Below are positions 19,490-38,212 of a stretch of 46,827 nt of DNA, piece after piece (the first letter of the stretch is position 1; every line of letters begins with the position of its first letter). The position numbers and the translations under genes were made by a program. The stretch spans positions 1 to 46,827 of IMG/VR virus record IMGVR_UViG_3300042691_014641; one strand, 5' to 3'. This DNA is from a virus. Under the pieces are notes generated by a model. It saw only the letters and a program-made list of their open reading frames with translations. It was not told the DNA's origin and did not search any database.

Positions 19490-20491
19490 ATGTTCATAGT
19501 TTTAGAAGGTGCAGACGCTTCAGGTAAGAGCACCCTTGCAGAAGAGATCAAAAGTCAACTCAAGCGAGCCAAGCCTGGCGCCGATGTAGAAGAGTTTCAC
19601 AAAGGCAAGCCTGAAGAACTTACCCGTCGCTGGGCTCTTCATGAGTATGCTGTAGCCATCGAAAGCATCGACTGGACGAGCCGCACTGCCGTGTCAGATA
19701 GGTGGCACTGGGGCGAGATAACGTACGCGCCGATCAAGCGTCCCGAGACGTGCAAGGACGAGTACGGTCTTCTTGGTGTAGCCGGCTGGCGCTGGGTAGA
19801 GCTCTTCCTCGAGTCCCGAGGTGTTGCACAGTTTTGGGTCTATCAGCCTCTCGAGGTGATCACCGAGCGAATCAATAGCCGTGGTGATGATTTTGTTGAT
19901 GCCCATGAACTTGCTGGTATTCTCGATAGATATGAGTTTGGGTACAACAAGGCGTATGGCGTAGAGCTAAAGGTCACCATTCCAAGTGGTATGAACTACG
20001 TTAAGTACGCCGCAGACGCTATCATTGAAGCCGCGACAAAAAAGTCAAAGGCAGCAGAACCACTTTCTAAGTTTCCGATGTATATCGGACCGAGATGGCC
20101 ACAGTCACTTCTTATCGGGGATAAAAGAAATGACCCGGCCGAGACTATTCTTCCGTTCATGCCTATCAACGGAAACTCAGGTGACTACCTTCTTTCGTCA
20201 CTCCCTGAAGCAAGTTGGCGAGCCTGCGGCATCATCAACTCAGATGACTTTTCAGAAGACTCGCTGAACGATCTTCTAGAAGTCCTTGGCCAGCCGAAGA
20301 TCATAGCACTTGGGAGACTGGCAGAAAAGAAAATTCGCCAGTGTGGATTGAACGATGACAGGTACGTTGTTCTTCCGCACCCACAATACGTCAGAAGATT
20401 CCATCATCAGGATCGCTCTGAGTATGGCCAAGCAATCACAAGTTTTGTCTACAACAGAGATGAAAGGTACACACATTGGATACTTCCGTAA
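19490..20491 (+). CDS. Deoxynucleoside monophosphate (thymidylate-like) kinase fused to UDG-like domain
   Basis: A 333-residue protein, ATG 19490 with AAGGACGG upstream. Residues 1-185 are a P-loop kinase of thymidylate-kinase type: Walker A GADASGKST (7-15), a DRWHWGE motif (70-76) in the place of the TMPK DRY motif, and a late lid-like helix. Residues 197-320 look like a separate uracil-DNA-glycosylase-superfamily domain: LLIGDKRND, LPFMPINGNSGDYL, IINSDD, PKIIALGRLAEKKI, and VLPHPQYVRRFHHQD. Phages usually encode these separately if at all. The kinase likely phosphorylates a dNMP; the second domain could be a glycosylase relative, nucleic-acid binder or base-modifying enzyme. Kinase call is firm; UDG-like call is moderate. 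Confidence 0.75.
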   Translation: MFIVLEGADASGKSTLAEEIKSQLKRAKPGADVEEFHKGKPEELTRRWALHEYAVAIESIDWTSRTAVSDRWHWGEITYAPIKRPETCKDEYGLLGVAGWRWVELFLESRGVAQFWVYQPLEVITERINSRGDDFVDAHELAGILDRYEFGYNKAYGVELKVTIPSGMNYVKYAADAIIEAATKKSKAAEPLSKFPMYIGPRWPQSLLIGDKRNDPAETILPFMPINGNSGDYLLSSLPEASWRACGIINSDDFSEDSLNDLLEVLGQPKIIALGRLAEKKIRQCGLNDDRYVVLPHPQYVRRFHHQDRSEYGQAITSFVYNRDERYTHWILP

Positions 20492-21336
20492 AGCTGATTC
20501 ACATTGAAGACGGTGTCAATGGTTACGTCGATCTTGTAAATCACGTGCTGCGCCACGGGCAGCCTGCTGCGCCACGTGGGTTTAAGACCTTAGAAATTGA
20601 AGACGCTGTTGTCTACATCGACGACATTTTTGCAGCTCTTCCGATCGGAGTCGGCCGTGGCACAGTGCCTGGTATCGGCGCCGTTGAGGCTTGCCAACTT
20701 CTTGGTGGCGTAAGCACTCCAGAAACGGTCATTGCAGTCGGGCCACAGTTTAAGAACTACGCCGAAGACAACGGGATATTTCACGGTGCGTATGGGCGCA
20801 GAACCAACGGACAGTATGACTATGCGATCGAGAAACTAAAGAACGACCGCGACACGCGACAGGCTGTCGTCACTATTTGGAACCCCGAATACGACAACCA
20901 AGAAGGCAAGAGAGACTATCCGTGTACTGTCCTTCATCAGTTCAGGATCAGAGACAACAAACTAAACATGAGCGTGTACATGCGGTCGAATGACGTGTGG
21001 TTGGGAGCAGCGTACGACTTCTTCCAATTTACAAGGGTTCAACTTGCGATGTGCAGCGTGCTTGGTATTGAGCCTGGCGCGTACGCTCATCACGTTGGGT
21101 CACTGCACATTTATGAATCGAACTATGCGGCCGCAGGTAATCTTAAGAAAACCGACAACGTCGAAGCCGTGCCGGCTATCTATGGAGATACGTGGGACGA
21201 TGTCAAGGACTCGGCGATAGCGATCCTTAACGCGGTAAATAATCAAAGCGGGATGGATTCTCTTTCTCCGCAGGAGCGGTGGTATGCTAGTGCCATGGTC
21301 ACAGCGATCGAAAAGAACAAAAGAAAAGAGGCATGA
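20476..21336 (+). CDS. ThyA-family dCMP hydroxymethylase-like (or thymidylate synthase) enzyme
   Basis: A 286-residue protein, TTG start 20476 behind GAAAGGT, overlapping the kinase end by 16 bases. ThyA-fold motifs are present: RDTR (125-128), catalytic Cys150 (YPCT), RSNDVWLG (170-177), and H211/Y213 in SLHIYESN. At residue 181 (GAAYDFF) there is Asp where thymidylate synthases have the Asn that selects dUMP (E. coli Asn177). T4 dCMP hydroxymethylase has Asp at this place. Known biochemistry therefore favours dCMP as substrate, giving 5-hydroxymethyl-dCMP. Neighbouring dNMP kinase, dCMP deaminase, MazG-like and GT-B-like genes fit. Thymidylate synthase with altered specificity remains possible. 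Confidence 0.78.
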   Translation: MDTSVKLIHIEDGVNGYVDLVNHVLRHGQPAAPRGFKTLEIEDAVVYIDDIFAALPIGVGRGTVPGIGAVEACQLLGGVSTPETVIAVGPQFKNYAEDNGIFHGAYGRRTNGQYDYAIEKLKNDRDTRQAVVTIWNPEYDNQEGKRDYPCTVLHQFRIRDNKLNMSVYMRSNDVWLGAAYDFFQFTRVQLAMCSVLGIEPGAYAHHVGSLHIYESNYAAAGNLKKTDNVEAVPAIYGDTWDDVKDSAIAILNAVNNQSGMDSLSPQERWYASAMVTAIEKNKRKEA

Positions 21337-21524
21337 TGAGCGGCGACTGGGACGACGACTACTCTTCACCGATGAAGGAAGCCGCGGTGAGCATGCACGA
21401 GATGTATCTCACATTGCGTGAAGCTGGGTTCTCCAGACGTGATGGACTAGAGCTTATTGCAAAAATGCTAATTACAGGCATCGCAGAAGCCTCGATAGAA
21501 GACGACGAAGATGACGAAGATTGA
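21333..21524 (+). CDS. Small acidic hypothetical protein
   Basis: A 63-residue protein starting at ATG 21333 (or 21336), overlapping the ThyA-like stop as ATGA and itself overlapping the deaminase start as TGATG. Central helices contain MHEMYLTLREAGFSRRDGLELIAKML, split by a turn; the tail is a run of Asp and Glu. Similar small proteins with an EAGF helix-turn-helix-like hairpin are common in actinophages next to nucleotide metabolism genes. Function unknown. Confidence 0.6.
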   Translation: MMSGDWDDDYSSPMKEAAVSMHEMYLTLREAGFSRRDGLELIAKMLITGIAEASIEDDEDDED

Positions 21525-22006
21525 TGGACGATACAAGACCTTCTTGGGATGAGACGTGGCTTGCTGTAGCCGAAACTATTGGACTTAGGTCTCGTTGCTC
21601 TCGTGCGCAGCTTGGCGCCGTAATCGTTTCTAGAGAACAAAGAATCTGTGCTACTGGTTACAACGGCCCTGCAGCAGATTGGCCAGAAACCGGGACGTGC
21701 GATCTATGGTGCCCAAGAGCGCGAGGAGAGGCGCCACTCGACAACATGTACGACGCGTGCCCAGCGATTCACGCCGAGGCAAACGCGCTGCTCTACGTTG
21801 ACCGCTCGAGTGTTGCCGGCGGGACACTATACGTGACGAGCGCGCCATGTATGCAGTGCGCTAAACTGATAACAAACTCTGGGCTTGCTCGAGTTGTATG
21901 CAGACTACGTTTGGCCGATCTTCATCGTAGACCGTACGACGTGTTTGAGTATCTAAAGAAGTGTAAGATAGAACTAACAGTAGTCAAGGACGACGACGTT
22001 GAGTGA
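21524..22006 (+). CDS. dCMP deaminase
   Basis: A 160-residue protein. ATG 21524 overlaps the previous stop (TGATG), so I take it over TTG 21521. Zinc-deaminase motifs: AIHAEANAL (H83, E85) and SAPCMQCAK (C109, C112). The insert with TCDLWCPRARGEA and DACP adds cysteines of the kind that bind a second zinc in dCMP deaminases. It converts dCMP to dUMP and is usually controlled by dCTP and dTTP. With the ThyA homologue it would set the balance between dUMP and a modified dCMP. T4 also has both dCMP deaminase and dCMP hydroxymethylase. Confidence 0.85.
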   Translation: MDDTRPSWDETWLAVAETIGLRSRCSRAQLGAVIVSREQRICATGYNGPAADWPETGTCDLWCPRARGEAPLDNMYDACPAIHAEANALLYVDRSSVAGGTLYVTSAPCMQCAKLITNSGLARVVCRLRLADLHRRPYDVFEYLKKCKIELTVVKDDDVE

Positions 22007-23822
22007 CAACGACCTTTCAAACGTACAACTTCATCTCGTAGATAGCGTCGAGAAGGCGCAGAACTTTCTTCATTGGCTTGGTCAGAGAAGACCGTACAAC
22101 GCTATCTCAGTAGACACAGAAACTGGTGAGTTACCAGGCAATCCAAGAGATCACGCGCTGTCTCCTTGGCATGGCCGTCTTCGCCTCGTGCAGGTTGGTG
22201 ACGGGGAGCAAGGCTGGTCTATCCCTTGGGACGAGTGGTCGGGCGTTTTCTACGAGGCGATGGACAAGTTTGACGGACCACTTATCTGTCACAACATCGC
22301 GTTCGAGGCTCGTTGGTTTGACGTTCAGTCTCGGTGGGATATTCCGTGGCACCGCGCTCACGACACGATGATCATGGCCCACGTAGTTGACCCGCTGGGC
22401 TCTGGCGCTCTTAAGCGCCTTGCGGCTCTTCATATCGACAGCAGAGCCGTTGCTCTACAGGACACGCTTGATGTTGAACTTGTCAAGAACGGGTGGACAT
22501 GGGGCACTGTCCCGACGAACTTCACACCATATTGGTCATACGGCGCGCTTGACTGCGTTCTAACCACGCGGCTGTGGGAAATGTTCTACAAGCAGTGCGG
22601 ACCAGAAGGTCCGTATCAGCGCGCGTACGAACTCGAGATGGCGACGCGCAAGATCGTTACACGCATGGAGATCAATGGTGCGCGCGTAGATCTTGACTAC
22701 TCGCAGAGGAAGTACGACGAACTTACCGCGTATACCGAGTCCGTAAAGAAGTGGGCGCGCGACACTTATGGTGGCGTGTCTATTACCAGCAACGTTCAAC
22801 TTGTTCGCCTGTTTGAGTCGCTCGGTGCTGAGATCACCGAGTTCACGCCGACTGGGCAAAAGTCATGCACTAAGGATCAATTAAAGATTCTTCAGAGAGA
22901 CGGAAACACTGAAGTATCGGCACTTGCCGACACTGTTCTCAAGCAACGTAAGGCTGACAAACTTGCCGGAACGTATTTCTCTAACTTTCTTACGGAGTCT
23001 ATCGACGGGATAGTTCACCCATCTGTTAAGACGTTGGGCGCTCGTACGTCACGCATGTCGATCACCAATCCGGCGCTACAAACGTTGCCTAAGGGAGACG
23101 ACGTAGTTCGACGCGCGTTCATTCCCAAGGACGAGGATCACGTGATTATCACGAGTGACCTTGACCAGGTCGAGTTCCGCATGTTCGCCAGTCTGTCAAA
23201 CGACACCAACCTAATCAATCTGTTTCATCTTGCCGATGCCACAGGTTCAGACCCGTTCACCGAGATCGGCCGTGAGGTGTACAACGATCCGACGATGCAG
23301 AAGTCTGACAAGCGTCGTGGTCTCATCAAGAGCATGATCTACGGTCGTCTCTACGGCGCAGGTGTTGCGAAGCAGGCGTTGACCGCCGGCGTTGCTGAGA
23401 TACAGATGAAACAAACCTCGGATGCGTTCGACAACCGATTCCCAGGAATGTCCTACTTCCAGAGACAGATAGAAGACATCGGAATGAGAAGACTGAAGTC
23501 CGAAGGACAGGGCTACGTCTACACGTGGACCGGGCGCAGACTGCCCTGCGACGAAGGCAGAGTCTACACACTTGTGAATTATCTCATTCAAGGTGGAGCG
23601 GCCGAGGTGTTCAAGTCAAATCTTGTTAAGCTCGACCAGGCGGATCTGACTGAGATGCTGATTGTTCCGGTGCACGACGAAATTGTGCTACAGGCGCCAC
23701 GTGAAGACGCTGAGGAGATCAAGCAACTTGTCAAGCAGTGCATGACCACAACGGATGGTTGGGCCGTACCGCTTACCGCAGACGTAGACGGCCCGCTTGA
23801 GACGTGGGGCGACAAGTACTAA
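21999..23822 (+). CDS. polA: DNA polymerase I-type (family A) with 3'-5' exonuclease
   Basis: A 607-residue replicative polymerase, TTG start 21999, overlapping the deaminase end by 8 bases, with AAGGA upstream. Exonuclease motifs: VDTETGE (38-44), HNIAFEARWF (98-107) and YGALDC (181-186). Polymerase motifs: A with SDLDQVEFRMFA (Asp387), B with KRRGLIKSMIYGRLYG (Lys444, Tyr448) and C with VHDEIVL. There is no 5'-3' nuclease domain, as in T7-like and many actinophage enzymes. Tyr at the E. coli Phe762 position is the state linked to processive, mostly virulent phages in ecological surveys. It is the core of the replication module. Confidence 0.92.
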   Translation: MSDNDLSNVQLHLVDSVEKAQNFLHWLGQRRPYNAISVDTETGELPGNPRDHALSPWHGRLRLVQVGDGEQGWSIPWDEWSGVFYEAMDKFDGPLICHNIAFEARWFDVQSRWDIPWHRAHDTMIMAHVVDPLGSGALKRLAALHIDSRAVALQDTLDVELVKNGWTWGTVPTNFTPYWSYGALDCVLTTRLWEMFYKQCGPEGPYQRAYELEMATRKIVTRMEINGARVDLDYSQRKYDELTAYTESVKKWARDTYGGVSITSNVQLVRLFESLGAEITEFTPTGQKSCTKDQLKILQRDGNTEVSALADTVLKQRKADKLAGTYFSNFLTESIDGIVHPSVKTLGARTSRMSITNPALQTLPKGDDVVRRAFIPKDEDHVIITSDLDQVEFRMFASLSNDTNLINLFHLADATGSDPFTEIGREVYNDPTMQKSDKRRGLIKSMIYGRLYGAGVAKQALTAGVAEIQMKQTSDAFDNRFPGMSYFQRQIEDIGMRRLKSEGQGYVYTWTGRRLPCDEGRVYTLVNYLIQGGAAEVFKSNLVKLDQADLTEMLIVPVHDEIVLQAPREDAEEIKQLVKQCMTTTDGWAVPLTADVDGPLETWGDKY

Positions 23823-24142
23823 TGAATCGCTACCTTGAAATGGCGATGTGCGTTGCCGCAAAGAGCAAGTGCCGTCACAAGCACGGTTGCGTCGTCGTAA
23901 GAAACGGAAAAATCGTCTCAACGTCGACAAACAAGAAGATTGGCGACCCGAAGACCGCGTGGCGGGTGTCCCATGTTCATGCTGAGTTTGCCGCTATCAC
24001 CGCGGCAGGCAACCTGGCCGTTGGTTCTAACGTCTACGTTGCCAGAATCGCGGCAGACGGATCACCGGCTCCGTCAAAGCCGTGCAAGAAGTGCGAAAGT
24101 ATACTACTAAGATCTGGAGTATCTAGGGTGGTTTGGACATGA
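23822..24142 (+). CDS. Small second zinc deaminase-fold protein
   Basis: A 106-residue protein. ATG 23822 shares its A with the polymerase stop (TAATG), so I prefer it to TTG/GTG codons upstream. It carries a compact cytidine-deaminase core: HVHAEFAAI (HAE at 53-55) and KPCKKCESIL (C88, C91). It is much shorter than the 21524 dCMP deaminase and lacks its cysteine-rich insert. The substrate is unknown; candidates are deoxycytidine, dCMP or a modified cytosine nucleotide. Its C-terminus overlaps the RuvC-like gene start (ATGA). Confidence 0.7.
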   Translation: MNRYLEMAMCVAAKSKCRHKHGCVVVRNGKIVSTSTNKKIGDPKTAWRVSHVHAEFAAITAAGNLAVGSNVYVARIAADGSPAPSKPCKKCESILLRSGVSRVVWT

Positions 24143-24603
24143 GGCTTATTCTTGCTGTGGACCCGGGAAAGAAGAGCGGTATCGCTACCATTTCCTATGA
24201 GAGTGGCCTAGAACCGCGCCTCTTGGCCTCCGGCGAGTTTCTTATGGAAGAATACCATAAGCCGATACTTGAGGCCATTCAGGCGGCCAAAGAGACGGGC
24301 GCGAAGCTAGAAATTGTCTGCGAGAGGTTCACGATCAACGCTCAGACGGTGAAAAACTCACAGGCGCCGTTCAGCCTCGAGCAGATCGGTATTCTTAAGT
24401 ATCTCATGCTTAGCAACGGTATAGACCCCGATACCCTGCTATTTCAGTCGCCTTCTGACGCAAAAAGAATGTTTGACAACACTGCTTTAAAGAAATTGGA
24501 CTATTGGTATCGCGGTGGAGAAGGTCACGCGTTGGACGCGATCAGACATGGTTTGCTGCGTTTAGTGAAGACTGGGTGGGCGCCGACTAGGCTGCTTGAG
24601 TAG
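24139..24603 (+). CDS. RuvC-like Holliday junction resolvase
   Basis: A 154-residue nuclease. ATG 24139 overlaps the previous stop (ATGA). RNase-H-fold motifs: LAVDPGKKSG with Asp8, VCERF with Glu62, and GEGHALDAIRHGLL near the C-terminus with Asp133. The Q-rich AQTVKNSQAPFSLEQIG segment is typical of phage RuvC-like proteins of actinophages. It probably cuts branched DNA during recombination or before packaging. It ends the first replication transcript segment; an 86-base gap follows. Confidence 0.8.
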   Translation: MRLILAVDPGKKSGIATISYESGLEPRLLASGEFLMEEYHKPILEAIQAAKETGAKLEIVCERFTINAQTVKNSQAPFSLEQIGILKYLMLSNGIDPDTLLFQSPSDAKRMFDNTALKKLDYWYRGGEGHALDAIRHGLLRLVKTGWAPTRLLE

Positions 24604-24604
24604 T

Positions 24605-24651
24605 CATACTAAGAAAAAATTGCATGCGTGAAGACATTTCCGCTTAGTATG
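24605..24651 (+). promoter_or_regulatory. Inverted repeat with embedded promoter-like TTGCAT
   Basis: CATACTAAG (24605-24613) and CTTAGTATG (24643-24651) are perfect 9-base inverted repeats separated by 29 bases. Within them TTGCAT (24620-24625) and TAGTAT (24645-24650) are 19 bases apart, and GATACAGT follows. This may be the promoter and operator of the helicase operon. Confidence 0.4.
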
Positions 24652-24689
24652 TGATACAGTGACAGATAACGAACGACAAGAGGTATTGA

Positions 24690-26492
24690 GTGCCAGTTGA
24701 TGTAGAACTTAATGATTCGGGTGAGCACATCCGCATCGACACCGAATGGCGATACAAAGAGCTATGCAAAGGTATCCCGGGTGCGACATGGTCAGCCGCT
24801 GACAAAGCGTGGCGTGCACCACTTGGTTGGTCAACGTGCCTTGCTCTTCGGTCGGTGTTTAAGACCGAACTGCGTATCGGACCAAGACTTACTGAATGGG
24901 CTACAAACGAATTCAACACGCGAGTTGCTCCGTGCAACGAACTGCGTGAGCTTGAGACGGCCGACGGTGACGAGGCATTGTTCCCGCACCAGCGTGCCGG
25001 AGTAAAGTTCCTTGCCGCTGCGCGTCGCGCTCTTCTTGCTGATGAGCCGGGCCTCGGAAAGACAGCGCAGACGATCCGCGCATTGAAAGAACTAAAGGAC
25101 AGAGGCGAGGAAGTGTTTCCTGCGCTCATCGTGTGCCCGAACACTCTGAAGAAAAACTGGAAGCGCGAGTTTGCGATGTGGTGGCCTGGAGTAAACGTTC
25201 AGGTTATCAGCGGATCAGCGACACAGCGCCGTAAGCAATTCGCCGAAGAAGACGTTGACGTGTACGTCATCAACTGGGAGTCATTGCGTACTCACTCGCG
25301 TCTTGCCAGTTACGGATCTGTTGCGTTGGCGCGATGCGTTGAATGCGGCGGTCATGATGAGAAGGTTTCGGAAAACCGCTGTGAGGTGCACATCCGTGAA
25401 CTCAATAAGATCGACTTCAAGTCAGTAGTTGCTGACGAGATTCACCGTTCGAAGGAACCAAAGAGCAAGCAGACACGAGCGCTTTGGGCGGCAACAGGAA
25501 ACGCAGACATCCGTTTTGCGCTCACTGGTACGCCTATCGCCAACAACGTTCTTGATCTATGGCCGATTCTGCACTGGCTGTCGCCAAACGAATGGCCTAG
25601 CAAGACTCGTTGGATCGACCGCATGGTTGATACGATGTTGAACGCATTCGGTGGAATGATGGTGCTCGGCGTCAAGCCGCACATGCACGACGAATTCTAC
25701 GCGGCTATCAACCCGCGTATGCGCAGAATGCTCAAGGCGAAGGTTCTTCCATGGTTGCCACCTGTGATCAAGGAGCGCCGTGACGTAGAAATGTCTACCA
25801 AGCAGAAAAAGGCGTACGAGCAAATGCGCGACGTCATGATCGCTCAGTTGGAAAGCGGTGAAGCGCTAACAGCGCCGAGCCCGCTAACTCAAGCTACACG
25901 GTTGTTGCAGTTCGCAAGTTCATACGCCGCGATCGATGTAGACGAGTTTACTGGAGAGATCGCCGTCAAACTGGCAGAGCCGTCGTGCAAGGTAGACGCG
26001 CTGATGGACGACATCGAAAACGGTGACTTTGGAGATGACTCAGTCGCCGTGTGTGCGGTGTCTCGACAGCTCATCGAACTTCTTAGCGCCCGCCTTGAAA
26101 AGGCGAAGATTCCTCACGGATTGATTACTGGCGCACAGACAGAGGAAGAACGCCAAAAGGCCATCGACGATTTTCAGAATGGCAGAATTAAGTGGATTCT
26201 TTTCACGGCGCAGGCCGGTGGAGTTGGTGTCACGTTGACTGCCGCGCGCAGACTGATCATGCTTCAGCGCCCGTGGTCACTGGTTGATTACAAACAGGCT
26301 CTTGACCGAGTTCACAGAATCGGTAGTGAGATCCACGACTCCATCGTGATCACAGACTACGTTACCGATGGGACGATTGAAGAGCGTGTCATTCAGGTTC
26401 TAGACACCAAGGCCGATAACTTCGAGCAGATCGTACGAGATAAGGACCAACTTCTCAAGATGTTGAGAGACGACAAGACAGGATCACTATGA
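24690..26492 (+). CDS. SNF2-family DEAD-like helicase
   Basis: A 600-residue protein, GTG start 24690 after AAGAGGT. The N-terminal 85 residues resemble a HARP/SMARCAL1-like DNA-binding part (W-SAADKAWRAPL). Helicase motifs: Walker A DEPGLGKT (118-125), DEIH (249-252), LTGTPIANN, and the C-terminal FTAQAGGVGVTLTAA and QALDRVHRIG arginine-finger region. Between motifs Ia and II is a small zinc-ribbon insert with C216, C219, C231 and H234. Such phage proteins are thought to remodel forks or anneal strands. The stop overlaps the nuclease start (ATGA). Confidence 0.88.
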   Translation: MPVDVELNDSGEHIRIDTEWRYKELCKGIPGATWSAADKAWRAPLGWSTCLALRSVFKTELRIGPRLTEWATNEFNTRVAPCNELRELETADGDEALFPHQRAGVKFLAAARRALLADEPGLGKTAQTIRALKELKDRGEEVFPALIVCPNTLKKNWKREFAMWWPGVNVQVISGSATQRRKQFAEEDVDVYVINWESLRTHSRLASYGSVALARCVECGGHDEKVSENRCEVHIRELNKIDFKSVVADEIHRSKEPKSKQTRALWAATGNADIRFALTGTPIANNVLDLWPILHWLSPNEWPSKTRWIDRMVDTMLNAFGGMMVLGVKPHMHDEFYAAINPRMRRMLKAKVLPWLPPVIKERRDVEMSTKQKKAYEQMRDVMIAQLESGEALTAPSPLTQATRLLQFASSYAAIDVDEFTGEIAVKLAEPSCKVDALMDDIENGDFGDDSVAVCAVSRQLIELLSARLEKAKIPHGLITGAQTEEERQKAIDDFQNGRIKWILFTAQAGGVGVTLTAARRLIMLQRPWSLVDYKQALDRVHRIGSEIHDSIVITDYVTDGTIEERVIQVLDTKADNFEQIVRDKDQLLKMLRDDKTGSL

Positions 26493-27448
26493 CAATCACT
26501 GAAACACCGGTGCAGCTTAACCGCGAGCCGCTAAGAATCTCAAACTCTGAGATTCAAACGTTTAAGGACTGCAGAAGAAAGTGGTGGTTGAACTACTACC
26601 GTAGACTTCAGCCGCAGACTCAAAACTTTACAGGCGCTCTTGCGTTAGGCTCACGCGTTCACTCGGCGTTGGATATGTACTATTCAACAGGAACTCCACT
26701 GCTCGAGGCATACGCTCACTTTGTGCAGCTCGACAAGAAGGCTCTTGTAGAGAGCTTCCGCGACACGATGGAACTCGAGACAGAAGCCGAGCTCGGTAGA
26801 ATCATGCTCGAGGGATATCTCGACTGGGTCAACGAGAACGGCATCGACGCCGATCTTGAGATGATCTCGACAGAAGAAATCATCACGATGCCGATGTTCG
26901 AGGGCAGGGTAGAACTTCAAGGTAAACTTGACATGCGTGTTCGTCGCAAGGCAGACGGTGTGCGTATGTTCCGTGACTTCAAGACGGTTGGCGGTTCGTT
27001 CACAGAGTTTGCTGCTCTTGCTCACATGAACGAGCAGATCCTAACGTACATGCTTCTCGAGGCGGCGCAGAACAAAGAAGGCGAGCGCAGCGAAGGCGGT
27101 ATCTTCACGATGTTGAAGAAGGTCAAGCGTACAGCAAACGCAAAGCCGCCGTTCTACGATCAGATCGAAGTCAGACACAACACCTTTGCGTTGAGAGCGT
27201 TTTGGAACAGAATTCATGGTACCGTAGGCGACATGCTCGCTGTGCGAGACGCATTGGACGAAGGACAAGATCATCACTTCGTTGCATACCCTCGGCCAAG
27301 CCGAGATTGCAAGTGGAAGTGCCAGTTCTTTGCAGTATGCCCGTTGTTTGACGACGGTAGCGCTGCAGAGCACGCGATCGCCGAGCTGTATACGCAAGGC
27401 GATCCGTATAAGTATTACGAATCAACAGAGATGAAAGGAAGTGAATGA
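26489..27448 (+). CDS. Cas4/RecB-like PD-(D/E)XK exonuclease with Fe-S cysteines
   Basis: A 319-residue protein, ATG 26489 overlapping the helicase stop. Motifs: FKDCRRKWW (C28), GSRVHSALD (H58), GKLDMR (D148), RDFKT (D163-x-K165) and NEQILTYM. Three late cysteines C274, C278 and C284 with C28 fit the 4Fe-4S cluster of AddB/Cas4-type nucleases. It likely resects DNA ends for the recombinase encoded next. No Cas1 or CRISPR array is nearby, so a CRISPR role is not indicated. Confidence 0.85.
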   Translation: MTITETPVQLNREPLRISNSEIQTFKDCRRKWWLNYYRRLQPQTQNFTGALALGSRVHSALDMYYSTGTPLLEAYAHFVQLDKKALVESFRDTMELETEAELGRIMLEGYLDWVNENGIDADLEMISTEEIITMPMFEGRVELQGKLDMRVRRKADGVRMFRDFKTVGGSFTEFAALAHMNEQILTYMLLEAAQNKEGERSEGGIFTMLKKVKRTANAKPPFYDQIEVRHNTFALRAFWNRIHGTVGDMLAVRDALDEGQDHHFVAYPRPSRDCKWKCQFFAVCPLFDDGSAAEHAIAELYTQGDPYKYYESTEMKGSE

Positions 27449-28206
27449 CCATGAGTGGAGTACAGCGATCGCTTACTCTCATGGTGTACGGTGAATCAAA
27501 GGTCGGTAAATCGACGTTTGCAGTCACTGCACCATACCCACGTCTGATGCTGGACGTGGAAGGCGGGCACAGATTCCTGCCTATCAACGTAAAGTACTGG
27601 GATCCGTTGCGTGAGGAGCCGCCGGCTGCTGACGGGACGTGGGATACCTGCGTTGTCAACGTCACAGAGTACGACACCGTTCTCAAGGCGTACCAGTGGC
27701 TTCAGATCGGACGCCACCAGTTTAAGTCACTGATCATCGACTCGGTCTCCGAGTTGCAGGTTAAGTGCATGGACAACATCGCCGGAACGAATCAGATGCA
27801 GATGCAACAGTGGGGCGAACTTCTTCGTCACATGGGCGCGCTGCTTCGTGATCTCCGCGACCTTACGATGCACGCAACCAACCCGCTCGAGGCAGTCGTG
27901 CTGACAGCGATGGCACGTCAAAGCCAGGATGGCCGGTATCGTCCGTACCTCCAAGGTCAGCTTGCCATTCAGGCTCCGTACTTCTACGACATCCTCGGTG
28001 CGATCAACGTCGAAGAGTTCAACAACCCGGACCCGACACAGGGACCGTACAAGGCGCGTCGTATGTACGTCGAGCGCACAAGTCAGTACGAGGCAGGCGA
28101 ACGTGTTCAAGGCCGCCTTGGCAAAATCGTCGAGCAGGGAGACCTCAGTGTCGAACGAATGCTCGATATCGTTTTCGGACCCCGTCCGGATCAGCAAGCA
28201 AAGTAA
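27445..28206 (+). CDS. Sak4-like RecA-fold ATPase
   Basis: A 253-residue protein, ATG 27445 (or 27451) overlapping the nuclease stop. Walker A GESKVGKST (16-24), a DVEGGHRF segment in the place of the first acidic strand and Walker B SLIIDS (95-100) define a RecA-fold ATPase of the Sak4 single-strand-annealing/recombinase group. Downstream KARRMYVERTSQYEAGERV is usual for the family. Sak4 proteins work with a phage SSB, and the next gene encodes an SSB-like protein. The Cas4-like, Sak4 and SSB order supports a recombination-dependent replication unit. Confidence 0.85.
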   Translation: MTMSGVQRSLTLMVYGESKVGKSTFAVTAPYPRLMLDVEGGHRFLPINVKYWDPLREEPPAADGTWDTCVVNVTEYDTVLKAYQWLQIGRHQFKSLIIDSVSELQVKCMDNIAGTNQMQMQQWGELLRHMGALLRDLRDLTMHATNPLEAVVLTAMARQSQDGRYRPYLQGQLAIQAPYFYDILGAINVEEFNNPDPTQGPYKARRMYVERTSQYEAGERVQGRLGKIVEQGDLSVERMLDIVFGPRPDQQAK

Positions 28207-28234
28207 CCAACACAGAAAGACATAGGTAAAAACA

Positions 28235-28807
28235 ATGAGCACACTCAATTGGGGTGACCTCGTCAAGGAGGCGGGTGACGTCGGTGGGTACGACCCGCTG
28301 CCCGACGGCGACTACGACCTCGTGATCGTTGAGGCACAGGCTAAGGCCACTCAGACGGGCAAGACGATGTTTGCCGTGAAGGCACAGGTCACAACCGGGG
28401 CGCACGCTAAGCGTCTCGTGTGGGACAACCTCGTCGTCTCGACAGACAACCCGAGCGCACTCGGAATCTTCTTCCGCAAGATGAACGCTCTCGGTCTTGA
28501 CCGCAACTACTTCGCGACCAACCCGACGAACGCTCAGATCGAGCAGACCCTCAAGGGTCGTAGCTTCCGCGCGCAGGTTGGTAGCCGTACATGGCAGGGT
28601 CAGAAGAAGAACGAGATCAAGACATACTACTCTCTTCCGACAACTTCCGCTCCGGCTCCTATGGCTGTAGCCCCTGCTCCTGCTCCGGCTCCGGCACCTG
28701 CTCCGGCGCCCGCACCTGTTGCCGCTGCTCCGGCTCCGGCACCTGCCCACGCTCCGGCACCTGTTGCCGAGGTTCAGGCACAGACACCGCCAGCCGCTCC
28801 GTTCTGA
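28235..28807 (+). CDS. SSB-like (DUF669-type) single-strand DNA-binding protein
   Basis: A 190-residue protein from ATG 28235. Residues 1-130 are beta-rich, beginning WGDLVKEAG, with GDYDLVIVEAQAKATQTGKTMF, as in DUF669-type SSB-like proteins that pair with Sak4. The C-terminal 55 residues are almost only Pro and Ala, a flexible linker built from DNA repeats, ending AAPF. The terminal Pro-Phe recalls the SSB tip that docks partner proteins, although the acidic residues are missing. A strong hairpin follows 17 bases after the stop. Confidence 0.75.
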   Translation: MSTLNWGDLVKEAGDVGGYDPLPDGDYDLVIVEAQAKATQTGKTMFAVKAQVTTGAHAKRLVWDNLVVSTDNPSALGIFFRKMNALGLDRNYFATNPTNAQIEQTLKGRSFRAQVGSRTWQGQKKNEIKTYYSLPTTSAPAPMAVAPAPAPAPAPAPAPAPVAAAPAPAPAHAPAPVAEVQAQTPPAAPF

Positions 28808-28824
28808 CGAGCTGCTGTTCTTTG

Positions 28825-28862
28825 GTGGTCGCCCGCGGCATGAGAATGCCGTGGGCGGCCAC
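28825..28862 (+). terminator. 17-bp hairpin with GAGA tetraloop after SSB gene
   Basis: Arms 28825-28841 and 28846-28862 pair over 17 positions with two T-G wobbles and close a GAGA (GNRA) loop. TTGAGTATC follows, not a T-tract. It separates the recombination genes from the GT-B-like pair and may end or protect the SSB message. Confidence 0.75.
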
Positions 28863-28888
28863 TTGAGTATCACACAAAGGATGAATCA

Positions 28889-30097
28889 ATGAAGATTTTA
28901 ATGACAGGGTTCACAGCTCTTCAAATCAATACAGAGCACAGAACTATTAAAAAGATCGACGTGCCAGCGTCGATCGTTGAAGCTCTTGAAAGCGTCGGCC
29001 ATCAGGTAGATTGGCGACGCGTCACACCTGGTGAAGATCTATCGTCGTACGACGTAATCTGGGTCAACCTCGGACCCTTGAACTCTCTTAACGGCCGCCA
29101 GGGCGCTATGGGCGCGCTGTACGCGCTCAGCTCTGGTGTCCCGGCAGTCGGGTTCTTTGATGACTGGCAATTTGCCGCCGTGTTCAACGCGTGCCGCTCA
29201 CTTGTTCGCCACCCAGAGATCCTATACAAGTATCTTCTGTCTGGGTCATCGGTTCGTGGCGACGAAGGCGCGACGTACTTCTCAAAGGCTGAAGCCGACG
29301 CGGCACTGGAAAGAATCATTGCCGCTAATCCCGACGCTGCAAAGAAGTGCGCCGTCGGTAGATACTTCTTTAACGACAACGACGACAACATCAAGGCGCA
29401 CGAAGGCCAGTTGGTACAGACAGCACAGGCTCTTCTGGGCGAACGCTGGTCGTATGGCATGGTTCCAGTGTGCCCGATGTACTCGTTTGGTGACCGTTCA
29501 CTTGTCCGCAAGAGAATGCCCGCCGAGATGGCTGGCATTGAGGCGCTAGACCCAAGTTCAACGATCTTCAATATCCTGTCGTCAGCCGAGCCGCTCCCTC
29601 CGTCTGAGAAAAAGCGTGCCTGGGTTCTCGGGGCGCTTGTGCCGCACGACACTTGGCTCGAAAAGAAGAATCCAGATTGGCCTGTAGAGATCGTAGGAAG
29701 CCGAAAGCTAATTAGAAAGTTCGGCGGACAGCGTTTTGACACAGAGGAAGACGTTCTTTCGTTTTACAACGAATACTGGGGAATTCTTTCGCCTCCGTAT
29801 CCGCATGCCGGCTGTGGTTGGTGGAGAAGCCGATTTATGTACGCCGCAAGGGTGAAGTCTATTCTTGTTACAGACAAGGGAGAAGGAAAGCCGCTCGGTG
29901 CACCATACTCGTTGACAATCAAGCAGGTCGAGTCGATGTCAGACGACGATCTGGCTGGTGCGGCAAACGCACAGGCGGACACGCTTCGTTCACATATGCC
30001 GACGTACGATTCGTTTGTTGATCACTGCAACAGGATCGTTCATCGCGCGTTGAATGAAGACAAGGGACTGAGGATCAATCCAGACGGTAGCAGGTAA
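28889..30097 (+). CDS. GT-B-like putative glycosyltransferase A
   Basis: A 402-residue protein from ATG 28889. The N-terminal half is Rossmann-like (MKILMTGFTALQ, VIWVNLGPLN, PAVGFFDDWQF at 86-95); the C-terminal half (RAWVLGALVPHDTW, VEIVGS, GCGWWRSRFMYAARV, SILVTDKGEGKPLG, QVESMSDDDL) fits the sugar-nucleotide lobe of GT-B enzymes. This layout resembles T4 beta-glucosyltransferase in plan, not in close sequence. The next gene is a diverged copy. The location inside the replication block, with a ThyA homologue carrying the dCMP-type Asp, makes a DNA-base glycosyltransferase the attractive reading; virion or wall glycosylation is the alternative. Confidence 0.6.
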   Translation: MKILMTGFTALQINTEHRTIKKIDVPASIVEALESVGHQVDWRRVTPGEDLSSYDVIWVNLGPLNSLNGRQGAMGALYALSSGVPAVGFFDDWQFAAVFNACRSLVRHPEILYKYLLSGSSVRGDEGATYFSKAEADAALERIIAANPDAAKKCAVGRYFFNDNDDNIKAHEGQLVQTAQALLGERWSYGMVPVCPMYSFGDRSLVRKRMPAEMAGIEALDPSSTIFNILSSAEPLPPSEKKRAWVLGALVPHDTWLEKKNPDWPVEIVGSRKLIRKFGGQRFDTEEDVLSFYNEYWGILSPPYPHAGCGWWRSRFMYAARVKSILVTDKGEGKPLGAPYSLTIKQVESMSDDDLAGAANAQADTLRSHMPTYDSFVDHCNRIVHRALNEDKGLRINPDGSR

Positions 30098-31110
30098 TGA
30101 AGTCAATTGCCATCTCTGGTATGACCGCCTCTCAGGCGTCGTACAGATCGTTTCATCATCGCGCGAGCTTCATAGGCTGCGTTGCTTCAATGTTGAAAGA
30201 CAACAACGTTGCCGTGCACTTTATAGAGCCAAGCGTTTTGCTAAAGAAAAGTGATCTCGATCAGTACGACTCTGTATTACTCGGTGTGGCTCCTATTCTT
30301 AGTATCGCCGCAAACAAGGCGTATGGAATTCTGCACATGATCAATCTGCTAAAAAACGATAGCAGACTTAGACTATTTGTAGACGCTCCAGAACCCGCTA
30401 AGATAGCCGCAAGCCTACGCGCCATCGATAAAAACAACGATGACATCATCAAACAGTTCTACTCGGGTAGAAAGCAGTATTCAGACGTAGTTGGTAATAA
30501 AAAGATTCTTGAGTCCACACTAGGTGGCGTGAAAACTCTTTTTTCTCACTGGGACTACGTTACTTTGTACCCGAGTAGCCCGTTTGTGGATTCTCAGGTT
30601 GTTAAGGCACAGCTCCCATGCACAGATGTTTCTACGGTTCTTCCTGTAGAAGTAGACAGTGTTCTTATCTCGTCTGAGATAAGCTCTACAGCAACGTCAA
30701 GAAGTAGACGCTGGGTAGTCGACAGCATGAACTCAAAGTGGTTCAAGTCTCTACAAAATACTCTTGGTAATTCTGCTGTTCAGATGAAAAGCAACAGACT
30801 GTCAACTGACTCAGACGTAGAAAAGATGATGCTTGAGTCTCAGGGGTCGATTCTAAGCGTACAAGATGATGGAATGCTCTGGTGGAGCTACAGAATGTCG
30901 CAGGCGATGAACTCTAGAACTCCAATAGTAAGCGACTGGAAGATTACGTCTATTCTTGGAGATTCTTGGTCGTTGCTGCCGGCAAACGTAGAGGAAATGG
31001 ATTACGTTGATATCTACGAACTATCGGTGACACAGCGGAAGCGCTACACAGGCGCGCTTATGAACGCACAAGACACTATACACACACTAAAGAATGGATT
31101 AGGGCTGTGA
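30097..31110 (+). CDS. GT-B-like putative glycosyltransferase B (paralogue of A)
   Basis: A 337-residue protein; ATG 30097 shares one base with the upstream stop. It begins MKSIAISGMTASQ with DSVLLGVAPIL and LRLFVDAPEP, a Rossmann-like N-lobe. The C-lobe contains GMLWWSYRMSQAM, TPIVSDWKITSILGDSWSLL and VEEMDYVDIY, which line up with GCGWWRSRFMYAA, SILVTDKGEG and VESMSDDDLA of the preceding protein. It seems to be a diverged tandem duplicate, perhaps for a second sugar or adding to another position. I see no family-level signature beyond the fold. Confidence 0.5.
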   Translation: MKSIAISGMTASQASYRSFHHRASFIGCVASMLKDNNVAVHFIEPSVLLKKSDLDQYDSVLLGVAPILSIAANKAYGILHMINLLKNDSRLRLFVDAPEPAKIAASLRAIDKNNDDIIKQFYSGRKQYSDVVGNKKILESTLGGVKTLFSHWDYVTLYPSSPFVDSQVVKAQLPCTDVSTVLPVEVDSVLISSEISSTATSRSRRWVVDSMNSKWFKSLQNTLGNSAVQMKSNRLSTDSDVEKMMLESQGSILSVQDDGMLWWSYRMSQAMNSRTPIVSDWKITSILGDSWSLLPANVEEMDYVDIYELSVTQRKRYTGALMNAQDTIHTLKNGLGL

Positions 31111-31592
31111 CAGACAAGGTGCTATTTGGCAAGTGGCTAGAGAAGACTCGCCAACTGCAAACAGACGTGTACAACGTCGACTACTCGTCGTTTCATAGCG
31201 ACGAGCATGACGATCTAAGAAACCTTATCGAGTACATCCGCTGGAACATGCTGGCGATCGACGACGAGCTTGCTGAGGTCCGTAAGGCCATCTCGTGGAA
31301 GCCTTGGCAGCACGATGACCCGTACGCCGATCGCCACGAGATCCTCAAGGAATGCGTTGACGTTCTGCACTTCGTTGCAAACATTCTTTGCGCCGCCGGC
31401 GCGACTGACGAAGAACTTGACGCTGAGTATTTGGCTAAGATGCAGAAGAACGCTGATCGCCAAAAGAACGGCTACAGAGTTCTTGACAGTGGTGTCAAGT
31501 GTGCCCAGTGCTTCAGAGCTCTTGACGACTATGACGTCAACTCATGCCTTGAATCGTCGTGCCCACAGCAGACGTCAAAAGGTGGGTCATGA
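31107..31592 (+). CDS. MazG/dUTPase-2-like NTP pyrophosphohydrolase with zinc ribbon
   Basis: A 161-residue protein, GTG 31107 overlapping the previous stop (GTGA). The all-alpha NTP pyrophosphatase core shows DDELAEVRKAISWKPW (E54, E57) and EILKECVDVLHF (E82, D85), the acidic magnesium site of the dimeric dUTPase/dCTPase/MazG superfamily. The C-terminus adds CAQC and C-x4-C (C132, C135, C147, C152), a likely zinc ribbon. It could hydrolyse dCTP or dUTP, the job T4 gives to gp56 when making modified cytosine DNA, or clean the nucleotide pool. Substrate cannot be told from sequence. Confidence 0.75.
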   Translation: MTDKVLFGKWLEKTRQLQTDVYNVDYSSFHSDEHDDLRNLIEYIRWNMLAIDDELAEVRKAISWKPWQHDDPYADRHEILKECVDVLHFVANILCAAGATDEELDAEYLAKMQKNADRQKNGYRVLDSGVKCAQCFRALDDYDVNSCLESSCPQQTSKGGS

Positions 31593-32402: not shown

Positions 32403-32603
32403 GTGAGACTTCACATCGAGATGAAATGCACCGGCAGAACGTTTGAAGAGATTCACGAGTCTCTTACAAGCAAGTGGTGCGAGTTCATTCAAGACCAGTC
32501 AGCAACTATCCCTCTTGACTCAGAGGTCTTTGTCTCTCAGCCTGAAGACGACCCTGATTCTGCGTTCTACGTCGCTAAACTGGTCGCGAGGGTAAAAGCA
32601 TGA
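32403..32603 (+). CDS. Small hypothetical protein
   Basis: A 66-residue protein from GTG 32403, two bases after the previous stop. It begins RLHIEMKCTGRTFEEIHESL and ends VAKLVARVKA, a possible beta-alpha-beta fold. Acidic middle (QPEDDPDSAF). It overlaps the next start by four bases (ATGA). No family recognised. Confidence 0.5.
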   Translation: MRLHIEMKCTGRTFEEIHESLTSKWCEFIQDQSATIPLDSEVFVSQPEDDPDSAFYVAKLVARVKA

Positions 32604-32896
32604 AGAACGAAAAAAGCCCGCGGCAGGAGATGCTTGAAACTGCCGCGAAGATAATCTCAGGTCAACGTGACACGCAGTACGGCGGACCTGAAGATAACTT
32701 TGGAAGAATCGCCAAAATATGGGGTGTTCTTTTTGGCAGAGAGTTCACCAACGAAGACGTCGCTATGGCGATGGTTGCAGTCAAGGTTGCTCGTTACGCT
32801 TCTAATTCTGGGTTTCAGCCAGACACGTGGACGGACATCGCTGGGTACGCTGCATGCGGCTACGAAGTTGGTCTAAATAGTCAGGTCTCTAAGTAA
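32600..32896 (+). CDS. DUF6378-like phage protein
   Basis: A 98-residue protein, ATG 32600 overlapping the previous stop. The sequence contains QRDTQYGGPEDNFGRIAKIW, then DVAMAMVAVKVAR and WTDIAGYAACGYE, the pattern of a family widespread in phages (YG-P-DNF, DIAGYAA). It is all-alpha and often sits near nucleotide-metabolism or methylase genes. Biochemical function is not known to me; a nucleotide-pool role is only a guess. Confidence 0.7.
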   Translation: MKNEKSPRQEMLETAAKIISGQRDTQYGGPEDNFGRIAKIWGVLFGREFTNEDVAMAMVAVKVARYASNSGFQPDTWTDIAGYAACGYEVGLNSQVSK

Positions 32897-32940: not shown

Positions 32941-34182
32941 ATGAGCAATCCGACGTTTATCGACTGTAACGGCCTTGCCGGTTTTATGAGCCTTGGCTTC
33001 GTAAGATCTGGCATCGACATGAAGGTCAGAACTGGCACTCTTAACTTTGGAAACCCCGTCGCCGAGGTAAACAGAAAACACCTCGGTAACGAGTGGACGT
33101 CTTTCTTTTCCGAAGATCCGAATGATTGGCCCGACATGAGCGCTGACGTCGTGCTTGGCTGCCCTCCATGCTCCGGTTGGTCGCTGTGGTCAGGTCCGGC
33201 AAACAGAGGCCCGGACGCTAAGGCGCACGAACACACGCGCGCGTTCATGAAGTACGCCGCTAGAATCAAACCAAAGATGGTCGTCTTTGAATGCGTACAA
33301 CAGGCGTACACGCAGGGGCGTGCGGTGATGAACCAATACCGCGACATGCTCGAGGAGCTGTCAAACAAGAAGTACGACCTGTATCACGTCAAGCACAACA
33401 ACCTCATGCTTGGTGGTTTCTCGTATCGTATGCGCTACTTCTGGGTAGCCGTCGAAAGCGGTATGCCTTTTGGCGCCCATGCGGAGATGCCAAAGGAAAT
33501 GCCCAAGATGATCGACGTGATCGGTGACCTCGAAAATCTTGAGATTACCTGGAACAAGCAGAAGTACAATGCTGAGCCGTCGAAGTTTGTCGCAAACCTG
33601 AGAAACCAAGATGGTTATGTTGACGGTCACATGAACAGAACAAACCTCGAGTCGCAGAGAATTCAAGAGATCTTCGACATCCTTGGAAACGAAGGATGGA
33701 AGCCCATGGATGCTTTGAACGTCGCTCTCAAGGAAGCCGTCGAAAAGAACGGAAACAGATTCCCGCAGTCTTGGGCGACAAAGGAAGAGAAGATTCGCCT
33801 GAACGACTTTTACATGGGATTCTCACTGCCAGCCCGCTGGGACGCTAACTCATTCTGCCACGTCATGACCGGCAGCGCTCTTGATCACATCGTTCACCCG
33901 ACGCAGCCGCGTCGTATCACTCACAGAGAAGCCGCAAGAATCCAAGGTCTCCCAGACGACTGGGAATTCGTAAGCGTCAACAACTACTCGGCTCTTGGGG
34001 CGACGTGGGGTAAGGCAGTTGCCGTGCAGGCGGCAACATGGATCGGCGAGGCAACGGCAGCTGCCCTTAACGGTCAGCCAAACGGACCGCAGGGCGAGTT
34101 GATCGGCGAGCGTGAGTGGCTTTTGGACACTGACAAGGGATTTAGCCGTAACTTCGTGAAGAAGAACTTCTACCAAGAATAA
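32941..34182 (+). CDS. C5-cytosine DNA methyltransferase family protein
   Basis: A 413-residue protein from ATG 32941 after AGGAAG. Motif I FIDCNGLAGFMSLGF (6-20), motif IV GCPPCSGWS with candidate catalytic Cys77, motif VI FECV with Glu117, a motif VIII-like YRMRYFWVA and a late motif PRRITHREAARIQGLPDDW and ALGATWGKAV (motifs IX/X) define the fold. PCS instead of PCQ and ECV instead of ENV depart from the common form. It could methylate phage DNA against restriction, or act on 5-position chemistry in another way. No restriction endonuclease gene accompanies it. Confidence 0.8.
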   Translation: MSNPTFIDCNGLAGFMSLGFVRSGIDMKVRTGTLNFGNPVAEVNRKHLGNEWTSFFSEDPNDWPDMSADVVLGCPPCSGWSLWSGPANRGPDAKAHEHTRAFMKYAARIKPKMVVFECVQQAYTQGRAVMNQYRDMLEELSNKKYDLYHVKHNNLMLGGFSYRMRYFWVAVESGMPFGAHAEMPKEMPKMIDVIGDLENLEITWNKQKYNAEPSKFVANLRNQDGYVDGHMNRTNLESQRIQEIFDILGNEGWKPMDALNVALKEAVEKNGNRFPQSWATKEEKIRLNDFYMGFSLPARWDANSFCHVMTGSALDHIVHPTQPRRITHREAARIQGLPDDWEFVSVNNYSALGATWGKAVAVQAATWIGEATAAALNGQPNGPQGELIGEREWLLDTDKGFSRNFVKKNFYQE

Positions 34183-36632: not shown

Positions 36633-36772
36633 TTGTCTTCTTTGCTTTGAAGCGCCTTGTTCAAGGCGTCTACAGTCGCCTCAAGAATCGCGATCTTCTG
36701 CGCTTGCTGCGCTATCTGGTTTGTAAGACTTAGGACGATCTTGTCGATGTCAAGTTCTAGGTTATCTGACAT
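36629..36772 (-). CDS. 47-residue coiled-coil protein
   Basis: A short gene reading from ATG 36772 to TAG 36629. Residues include DNLELDIDKIVLSL, QIAQQAQKIAILEATV and DALNKALQSKEDN, a heptad pattern of a single coiled coil. The ATG shares its A with the glycosyltransferase stop (TAATG), and GGAG precedes it, so translation is probably coupled. It is the last gene of the - strand operon and converges on WhiB with a 4-base overlap. It may be a small assembly or regulatory peptide. Confidence 0.65.
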   Translation of the reverse strand: MSDNLELDIDKIVLSLTNQIAQQAQKIAILEATVDALNKALQSKEDN

Positions 36773-37566
36773 TATCTATTCTCCGTCTGTTCATTTAGTT
36801 CTTCAAATCTGCTATCTATCATATCACTGTACTTAGAAGAAATCTCGACCACGAGATCTTGAATTAGTGCGTTTCTTTGCCTCTGCGCAGTTGACGGTCC
36901 GATGTGCTGCTTATATAGAAGCTTATTGATATGAAGAAACTTTGTCTCAAGAAAGGTTCTTACGACAAGTTCGTAGTCGTCAGCAACTACGTACGCTGGG
37001 TTGTGCCCGTTAAGCTTTCTATACACGTCTGCGCGCCACGCTCGAACATGATTAGGCGCTGATACGATGTGCTTCATCGTTGTCGGATTGATCTCAGGAG
37101 CTGACATCGCCCAGACGCCGTGTTCTTCAGACCAGTAGTCGCTACCGTAGCCGAATCCCCAGCCTTCAGGGTAGCGCCCCGACACACCGTTCTCAAGTAT
37201 CTCACACCAGTCTGAATAGACAAACCCGATGGTTTGGTCAGAAAACGCTTTCGCAACCTCGTCAAGACAGTCAGGGTACAGCTCATCGTCGTGGTCGAGC
37301 TCAAGAAGAATGTCTCCTTTAGCGACCATGAAACCGTTTCTCTTGACGTCGCCGATGGACCCTGAGTGGACGTGTGAGCGATGCATCGAGATCTTGTATC
37401 GTTCATCCGAACAAAAACCGTATAGCTGTCGCCACGCTTCTTCGTTTGTTGAGTCGTCCCAGATTACCCACTCCCAGTCTGTGAATGTCTGCTGCTTAAG
37501 AGAATTCCAGGTGCGAGCAAGAATGTCGGGAGAAGTGTTGTACGTGGGTGTGATGATAGAAATCAT
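36772..37566 (-). CDS. Family 2 (GT-A) glycosyltransferase
   Basis: A 264-residue protein from ATG 37566. Hallmarks: SIITPTYNTSPDILARTW at the N-terminus, VIWDDST, GSIGDVKRNGFMVAKGDILL and LDHDDELYPD, the DxD-type metal and UDP-sugar site. The middle has SAPNHVRAWRADVY. It is soluble, without membrane segments. It lies in the fibre operon next to the 2OG oxygenase, so a virion protein (such as the Thr-rich collagen-like fibre) is a plausible acceptor; modification of host surface glycans or phage DNA cannot be excluded. Confidence 0.85.
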   Translation of the reverse strand: MISIITPTYNTSPDILARTWNSLKQQTFTDWEWVIWDDSTNEEAWRQLYGFCSDERYKISMHRSHVHSGSIGDVKRNGFMVAKGDILLELDHDDELYPDCLDEVAKAFSDQTIGFVYSDWCEILENGVSGRYPEGWGFGYGSDYWSEEHGVWAMSAPEINPTTMKHIVSAPNHVRAWRADVYRKLNGHNPAYVVADDYELVVRTFLETKFLHINKLLYKQHIGPSTAQRQRNALIQDLVVEISSKYSDMIDSRFEELNEQTENR

Positions 37567-37570
37567 GCGT

Positions 37571-38212
37571 CTAAAAGTGTCTGTGCGTTTCTACTGGTTG
37601 ACAAACTAAAAATGAACTAAGTATTAGTTTATCTGAAGATATCGGCATCATGGCTTCGTGCGGGTACATCCAAGAAGATGGAAATATCGCTACTCCACCT
37701 TTCTTCGGTTTTATGTAGTGATCCTGATATCTAAAGTACGTCTCTCCGCCTTCATCTACAGTGTTGATGTAACACACGATTCCAGCAACTCTGTGTATCG
37801 TATCGTGATTCCAGTTGTCTCCGTCAACGTGCTCTTTGTAGTAGCCATCGTTCTTACGGTACATCTGCCACAGATAGCCTGTGTCGACGATATTTGGCGC
37901 CTTGGCCAGTTGATCGTAGATGTTGAGATAGTCACTCACTGGAAGCTTTAGTTCTTCATAGATTCTATCATCTATGTTAGATCTCTCGGCTATTAGACTT
38001 TCGTCGCACTGCGATAGTCTTTTCATGTCTTGATCAAGTGTATGCTTCCACGGGGAGTCCTCAGTTCCACCGTTTGACCCGCTCATAGTTACGCCAGGTA
38101 AAGCTAGACTATCGATGTTTCGATAGTAAAACTCCCATACGTCTTGGCAGAGGTAGTCTGATAGACCGTTTTCGTAGTAAGCTATACCTTCATGTAGGTA
38201 CTCTAGGTGCAT
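37571..38212 (-). CDS. 2-oxoglutarate/Fe(II) oxygenase, prolyl 4-hydroxylase-like
   Basis: A 213-residue protein from ATG 38212. Double-stranded beta-helix motifs: KEHVDGD (His128, Asp130), CYINTVDEGGETYF, KPKKGGVAIFPSSW, YPHEAMMP (His185) and Lys195 to bind 2-oxoglutarate. This is the arrangement of prolyl-4-hydroxylase-type enzymes, frequent in aquatic phages. It needs iron, oxygen and 2OG. Cotranscription with a collagen-like fibre suggests peptide hydroxylation, yet that fibre carries its Pro at X of Gly-X-Y and not Y, so classic 4-hydroxylation is not assured. Other residues or nucleic acid bases are alternatives. Confidence 0.8.
   Translation of the reverse strand: MHLEYLHEGIAYYENGLSDYLCQDVWEFYYRNIDSLALPGVTMSGSNGGTEDSPWKHTLDQDMKRLSQCDESLIAERSNIDDRIYEELKLPVSDYLNIYDQLAKAPNIVDTGYLWQMYRKNDGYYKEHVDGDNWNHDTIHRVAGIVCYINTVDEGGETYFRYQDHYIKPKKGGVAIFPSSWMYPHEAMMPISSDKLILSSFLVCQPVETHRHF

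Follow-up and report, generated by a model that had tools for sequence, protein, structure and literature searches.

A block of nucleotide, replication and glycosyltransferase (GT) genes at positions 19,490 to 31,592 of the window, a 46,827-base virus fragment (IMG/VR record IMGVR_UViG_3300042691_014641, 51.7% GC), is probably a T4-like cytosine-replacement module. Hydroxymethyl-dCMP (hm-dCMP) would replace cytosine, and the product of the GT gene gtA would decorate it with sugar from a host sugar nucleotide. The window comes from a group of freshwater phages with predicted actinobacterial hosts, and the rest of its genome lies outside our view. This reading is built on homology, on key residues, on predicted folds and on genes that are gained and lost together, from which we infer the catalytic activities, the sugar and the extent of the substitution.

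In the proposed route, a MazG/gp56-like enzyme would convert dCTP to dCMP, and an Asp-type homologue of thymidylate synthase (TS), ThyA, would use methylene-tetrahydrofolate to hydroxymethylate C5 of dCMP. The kinase encoded beside it, aided by host kinases, would take hm-dCMP towards hm-dCTP, and the phage's family-A polymerase would insert this nucleotide instead of dCTP. After replication, GtA would move a sugar onto the hydroxymethyl group, and the sugar would shield the DNA against restriction. The second GT-B enzyme, encoded by the lineage-wide gene gtB, may add or extend a sugar here and would have another or an additional substrate elsewhere.

Gene content around the phage polymerase

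Since earlier scans had started from genes of the module, the survey was repeated without this bias, using a diverged relative's polymerase as the seed. The thyA-seeded and polymerase-seeded loci were pooled, giving 82 with enough flanking sequence on both sides. The kinase, thyA, the first GT, gtB and mazG were all present at 38 of these loci. The other 44 had gtB and none of the other four genes, and no intermediate between the full and the empty module was found among the 82. On the polymerase tree, the module state changes at least twice on well-supported branches, with all parts changing together. The kinase open reading frame (ORF) overlaps thyA and is lost and gained with it. Because the kinase, ThyA, the first GT and MazG are present or absent all together and are gained or lost as a unit, there is strong evidence that they form one functional module.

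gtB, found at all 82 loci, belongs to the core genes of the phage group as a whole. It is not pathway-specific, because it is present in relatives that have no TS-fold gene: such a gene was absent from 15 sister records, of which nine measure 125-154 kb, and gtB is present in this sister group. A dUTPase_2 gene was found in 0/9 near-complete sister genomes (125-154 kb) versus 8/8 module genomes, with near-completeness judged by length alone. In the large sister group (L290-L369, with L277 and L291 as examples), gtB directly follows ssb, and the kinase, thyA, gtA and mazG have been lost or were never there.

The first-pass annotation had proposed a complete pathway for glycosylated cytosine that included both tandem GTs. 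The T4-like steps are present, and four of the parts are gained and lost as a unit, with gtB outside it. The two GTs do not hold up as a pathway-specific pair, since the polymerase-anchored survey placed gtB in a large sister group without ThyA, MazG or gtA. That annotation had also held that GT homologues occurring consistently without an Asp-type ThyA would speak against the pathway. In the neighborhood survey this pattern was seen for gtB and was not seen for gtA.

The scans seeded with gtA, gtB and ThyA gave a conserved order of kinase, thyA, deaminase, polymerase, ruvC, helicase, exonuclease, recA, ssb, a variable slot, gtB and mazG, with a C5 methylase further downstream. The same order was found at more than 100 viral loci, an arrangement far above chance, and mazG follows gtB at 135 of 137 untruncated loci. 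The nearest annotated record, Actinomycetia phage DSL-LC01, is collinear across the block. Features of the window are listed in Table 1, with domain calls from Pfam and PHROGs.

Table 1. Genes of the block and its 3' flank in the window
Feature	Coordinates	Strand	Evidence
dNMP kinase-like protein, 333 aa, C-terminal UDG-like domain	19490..20491	+	phrog_761 E 2.4e-16
Asp-type thymidylate synthase homologue (ThyA), proposed dCMP 5-hydroxymethylase	20476..21336	+	PF00303 E 2.9e-22
dCMP deaminase-like protein, accessory	21521..22006	+	phrog_174 E 6.8e-41
Family-A DNA polymerase	starts 21999		Pfam/PHROGs
Second, short dCMP-deaminase-like ORF	23804-24142		Pfam/PHROGs
gtA, GT-B glycosyltransferase, proposed module transferase	28889..30097	+	AlphaFold2 model, structural match, linkage to thyA and mazG
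gtB, GT-B glycosyltransferase, gtA paralogue	30097..31110	+	predicted structure, PDB match T4 BGT
All-alpha NTP pyrophosphohydrolase (dUTPase_2 / T4 gp56-like), proposed dCTP remover	31107..31592	+	PF08761 E 3.7e-12
DUF6378 protein	32600-32896		conserved 3' of module
C5 cytosine DNA methyltransferase	32941..34182	+	PF00145 E 5.7e-23

The nucleotide enzymes

Asp181 of the window's ThyA occupies the Asn177 position of TS. Asp is found here in 57 of 58 relatives (the one deviating row seems to be damaged at multiple positions), and the catalytic Cys150 is kept in all 58. The remaining key residues are Arg170 and the folate-site residues Asp173, Leu176, Gly177 and Tyr213, all retained. The best PDB match is the CMP 5-hydroxymethylase MilA, which has the Asp too, and hhalign places the family on T4 gp42 with a probability of 98.4%. 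In a single alignment, the residue at the Asn177 position is Asp in T4 gp42, in four Gordonia phages, in a Manatee Spring virus, in DSL-LC01 and in the window. Two Aeromonas phages and Erwinia phage FBB1 each have a second TS copy, also with Asp, while their true TS copies, like that of Vibrio phage F86, have Asn. The TS-type C-terminal tail (...MAV/MAI) of true TS copies is absent from the window's enzyme.

RB69-like phages (Mosigvirus RB69/NP) are reported to use a 5-hydroxy-dCMP (5-hodCMP) synthase, which is a TS-superfamily homologue of the hydroxymethylase (PMC13390438, a 2026 paper from which RB69 chemistry was taken throughout). The Asp-type ThyA could also make 5-hydroxy-dCMP, with the sugar attached directly to the C5-OH of cytosine, and some relatives of the window carry a kinase and a nucleotidyltransferase resembling the RB69 sugar genes (type IV cassettes, below). 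This is unlikely, as RB69 ORF048c has RSQN...VV in place of the RSxD...G common to T4 gp42, true TS and the window family, and the window keeps Asp173, Gly177 and Tyr213. Because the window retains this folate-site motif (RSxD, then G), which ORF048c lacks, dCMP hydroxymethylation is the best reading of the likely ThyA activity.

TS enzymes with an Asn-to-Asp change at the Asn177 site can methylate dCMP. On this alternative, ThyA would be a dCMP methylase, the phage DNA would contain 5-methylcytosine, and the GTs would act on something else; the C5 methyltransferase that co-occurs with the module could fit this picture. We regard it as very unlikely, since ThyA lacks the TS-type tail, the first GT is linked to the module, and the best PDB relative is a hydroxymethylase. 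An even slimmer chance is given to a thymine-derived base, made through an SPO1-like 5-hydroxymethyluracil pathway. In its favor, the BLAST relatives of ThyA include SPO1-type enzymes, and the kinase carries a UDG-like domain, but the SPO1 dUMP hydroxymethylase (gp29) carries Asn where the window family has Asp, and the block encodes a gp56-like pyrophosphatase.

The kinase has the P-loop GADASGKS, in which G, G and K are conserved in 55/55 relatives, and is proposed to phosphorylate the modified dCMP. Its UDG-like domain spans residues ~199-312 (Pfam UDG E 0.0097, below Pfam's cut-off), and the IG...GD and HP motifs of this domain are kept in nearly all relatives. The protein encoded at 31107 is 29% identical to T4 gp56 (BLASTP E 1e-13), and the acids of its ExxE...ExxD metal site (E54, E57, E82 and D85) are invariant in 45/45 sequences. 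We propose that this pyrophosphohydrolase acts on dCTP; dUTP or another NTP is a possible substrate.

All ORFs in the first-pass annotation were found where it had placed them, and each component it listed is present. The dNMP kinase has its phrog_761 match and an intact P-loop, although the UDG-like domain had gone unmentioned. The Asp-type ThyA has the PF00303 fold and Asp181, a phrog_174 deaminase-like gene lies in the block, both predicted GTs model as GT-B folds, and the MazG/dUTPase-like call agrees with the dUTPase_2 match and the identity to gp56. The 21521 deaminase-like gene occurs in a few thyA-less relatives as well, and the second, short deaminase-like ORF is restricted to part of the phage group.

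Glycosyltransferases and the exchangeable slot

Neither gtA nor gtB matches a Pfam family, and no sequence match of either to any PDB chain was found. Confident structure predictions for the two proteins (AlphaFold2 with pLDDT 87.5 for GtA; pLDDT 93.0 for GtB) both have GT-B folds, and the two are paralogous (hhalign 99.6%). The closest PDB structure to GtB is T4 beta-glucosyltransferase (BGT; VIA Z 18.0, 300 residues, 3.9 A), followed by the selenosugar enzyme SenB (16.5) and T4 alpha-glucosyltransferase (AGT) with DNA (15.3). For GtA, SenB (16.6) and T4 BGT (16.5) are tied, and T4 AGT scores 15.4. Another structural match is a PDB entry named "phage HY126 glycosyltransferase", on which no paper was found. 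GtA has an invariant Asp91-Asp92-Trp93, and the likely active-site residues of GtB are conserved in both the module-plus and the module-minus groups. Judged by position, our guess is that the catalytic Asp100 of T4 BGT corresponds to Asp96 of GtB or Asp91/92 of GtA. We do not file either protein as a member of the T4 BGT family, as both have the GT-B fold and lack detectable sequence homology. No bacterial gtB homologues were found in a scan of genome contigs, which is weak evidence since the scan used one short pattern.

The slot upstream of gtB varies between relatives. It contains gtA alone in the window (type I), a gtA' with a UDP-galactopyranose mutase (UGM) in DSL-LC01 and L157, or a different GT in L132. 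In type IV, found in L184 and others, the L132-type GT is joined by an APH-like kinase, a HAD phosphatase and a sugar nucleotidyltransferase, and this kinase weakly matches RB69 ORF052c (BLASTP E 4e-4). As the slot is an exchangeable cassette, related phages probably rely on different sugars, some of them made by phage enzymes. UGM was considered as the source of the window's sugar and rejected. It was absent from the 10 large relatives checked, eight of which have the window's gtA type, which makes it unlikely that type I phages produce their own furanose.

A more elaborate version, which we put forward only tentatively, is that the slot is a cartridge acting on 5-hydroxymethylcytosine. Mutase cassettes would place a furanose (galactofuranose or arabinofuranose) on the DNA, and gtB would be a lineage-wide BGT-like enzyme with a second acceptor base in genomes that have no hydroxymethylase. 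No report of a furanose sugar in DNA was found in the literature searched.

Of 11 phage records examined that have a gtA homologue, 9 also have an Asp-type ThyA. Outside the group, in Aeromonas phages 25 and 60AhydR15PP and Erwinia phage FBB1, the gtA homologue adjoins a UGM gene, and an Asp-type ThyA is present too. A mutase lies beside the gtA homologue at L193, L194, L196 and L198 (Aeromonas/Erwinia T4-like phages and C48C1), where some are annotated only as hypothetical.

Both GTs could instead decorate virion or host surface glycans, with their closeness to nucleotide genes being synteny only. This would agree with the presence of gtB in phages without a TS-fold gene, with the structural closeness of SenB and envelope GT4 enzymes, and with the DSL-LC01 authors' interpretation of its UGM as a cell-wall gene (PMC10611076). 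For the pair, we find this explanation quite unlikely, since gtA comes and goes with thyA, the kinase and mazG and sits in the replication module, away from tail genes. For gtB alone, it may hold.

Several observations weigh against the T4-like cytosine-replacement reading. The resolved independent gain/loss events number two, too few for a sign test, and gtB occurs in phages without any TS-fold gene. For neither GT is sequence homology to T4 BGT detectable (hhalign probabilities of 1.3% and 0.5% for the two), and similarity of predicted GT-B structures does not prove a DNA acceptor, as the scores of SenB and of cell-envelope GTs are almost equal. In phage C48C1, a gtA homologue and a mutase occur in the absence of any TS-fold gene, and the gtA homologue of Vibrio phage F86 is accompanied solely by an Asn-type TS. 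No DNA chemistry for any module-bearing phage, Gordonia isolates included, was found in the literature. Finally, if C5 substitution were complete, it would be hard to explain why a C5 cytosine methyltransferase is conserved. This gene was found in 6/8 module-plus genomes versus 1/9 module-minus genomes. Its company with the module is puzzling because C5-substituted cytosine should block the methyltransferase. It is missing from two module genomes (G014 and G017) and, thus, is not present whenever thyA is.

Two other loci lie downstream of mazG. The PHROGs label of the DUF6378 protein, phosphofructokinase, looks doubtful. On the minus strand, a GT2 glycosyltransferase and a 2OG-Fe(II) oxygenase (36772-38212) adjoin tail-collar genes and vary among close relatives, and DSL-LC01 has a tryptophan-halogenase-like gene in their place. 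These two genes probably serve virion surface modification.

Isolates and comparison with known systems

An Asp-type ThyA occurs together with gtA, gtB and a third GT in each of four Gordonia isolates (GMA2, GodonK, Forza and Sixama). For GMA2, GodonK and Sixama, a C5 methylase and either a dUTPase or a MazG-like gene were seen close to the GTs. The GMA2 paper goes no further than remarking that the glycosyltransferases might protect DNA (PMC4524720).

Sugar-coated cytosine is known chiefly from T4-like phages of Gram-negative hosts, and no report of glycosylated cytosine in actinophages was found in the literature searched. If confirmed, the module would mean that a common freshwater actinophage group protects its genome with DNA sugars that change by cassette exchange. 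Such exchange would help explain how phages outpace modification-dependent nucleases, and the cassette type might allow the DNA sugar of each virus to be read off. Confirmation would also provide new, sequence-unrelated DNA glycosyltransferases usable as tools. Since the culturable Gordonia phages carry the same genes, the module is testable now.

Of the known systems, T4 (gp56, gp42, gp1, alpha-GT and beta-GT) is matched in the Asp-type hydroxymethylase motifs, the gp56-like pyrophosphatase, the dNMP kinase and GT-B transferases whose predicted structures come closest to BGT. Unlike T4, the window's group has GTs without sequence homology to BGT, a family-A polymerase, an exchangeable sugar cassette and a predicted actinobacterial host. 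The arabinosyl-cytosine system of RB69 is similar in having two GT candidates, and the kinase and NTP-transferase genes of type IV resemble RB69 ORF052c/053c. It differs in that the RB69 ThyA-like enzyme is of the 5-hydroxy type without the folate motif, and the window has no sugar-activation genes. The Gordonia phages differ from the window in having ThyA and the GTs ~17-26 kb apart and in their third GT. DSL-LC01 has a gene order identical to that of the window over the whole block, but a mutase is inserted between its two GTs and its gtA is 30% identical to the window's.

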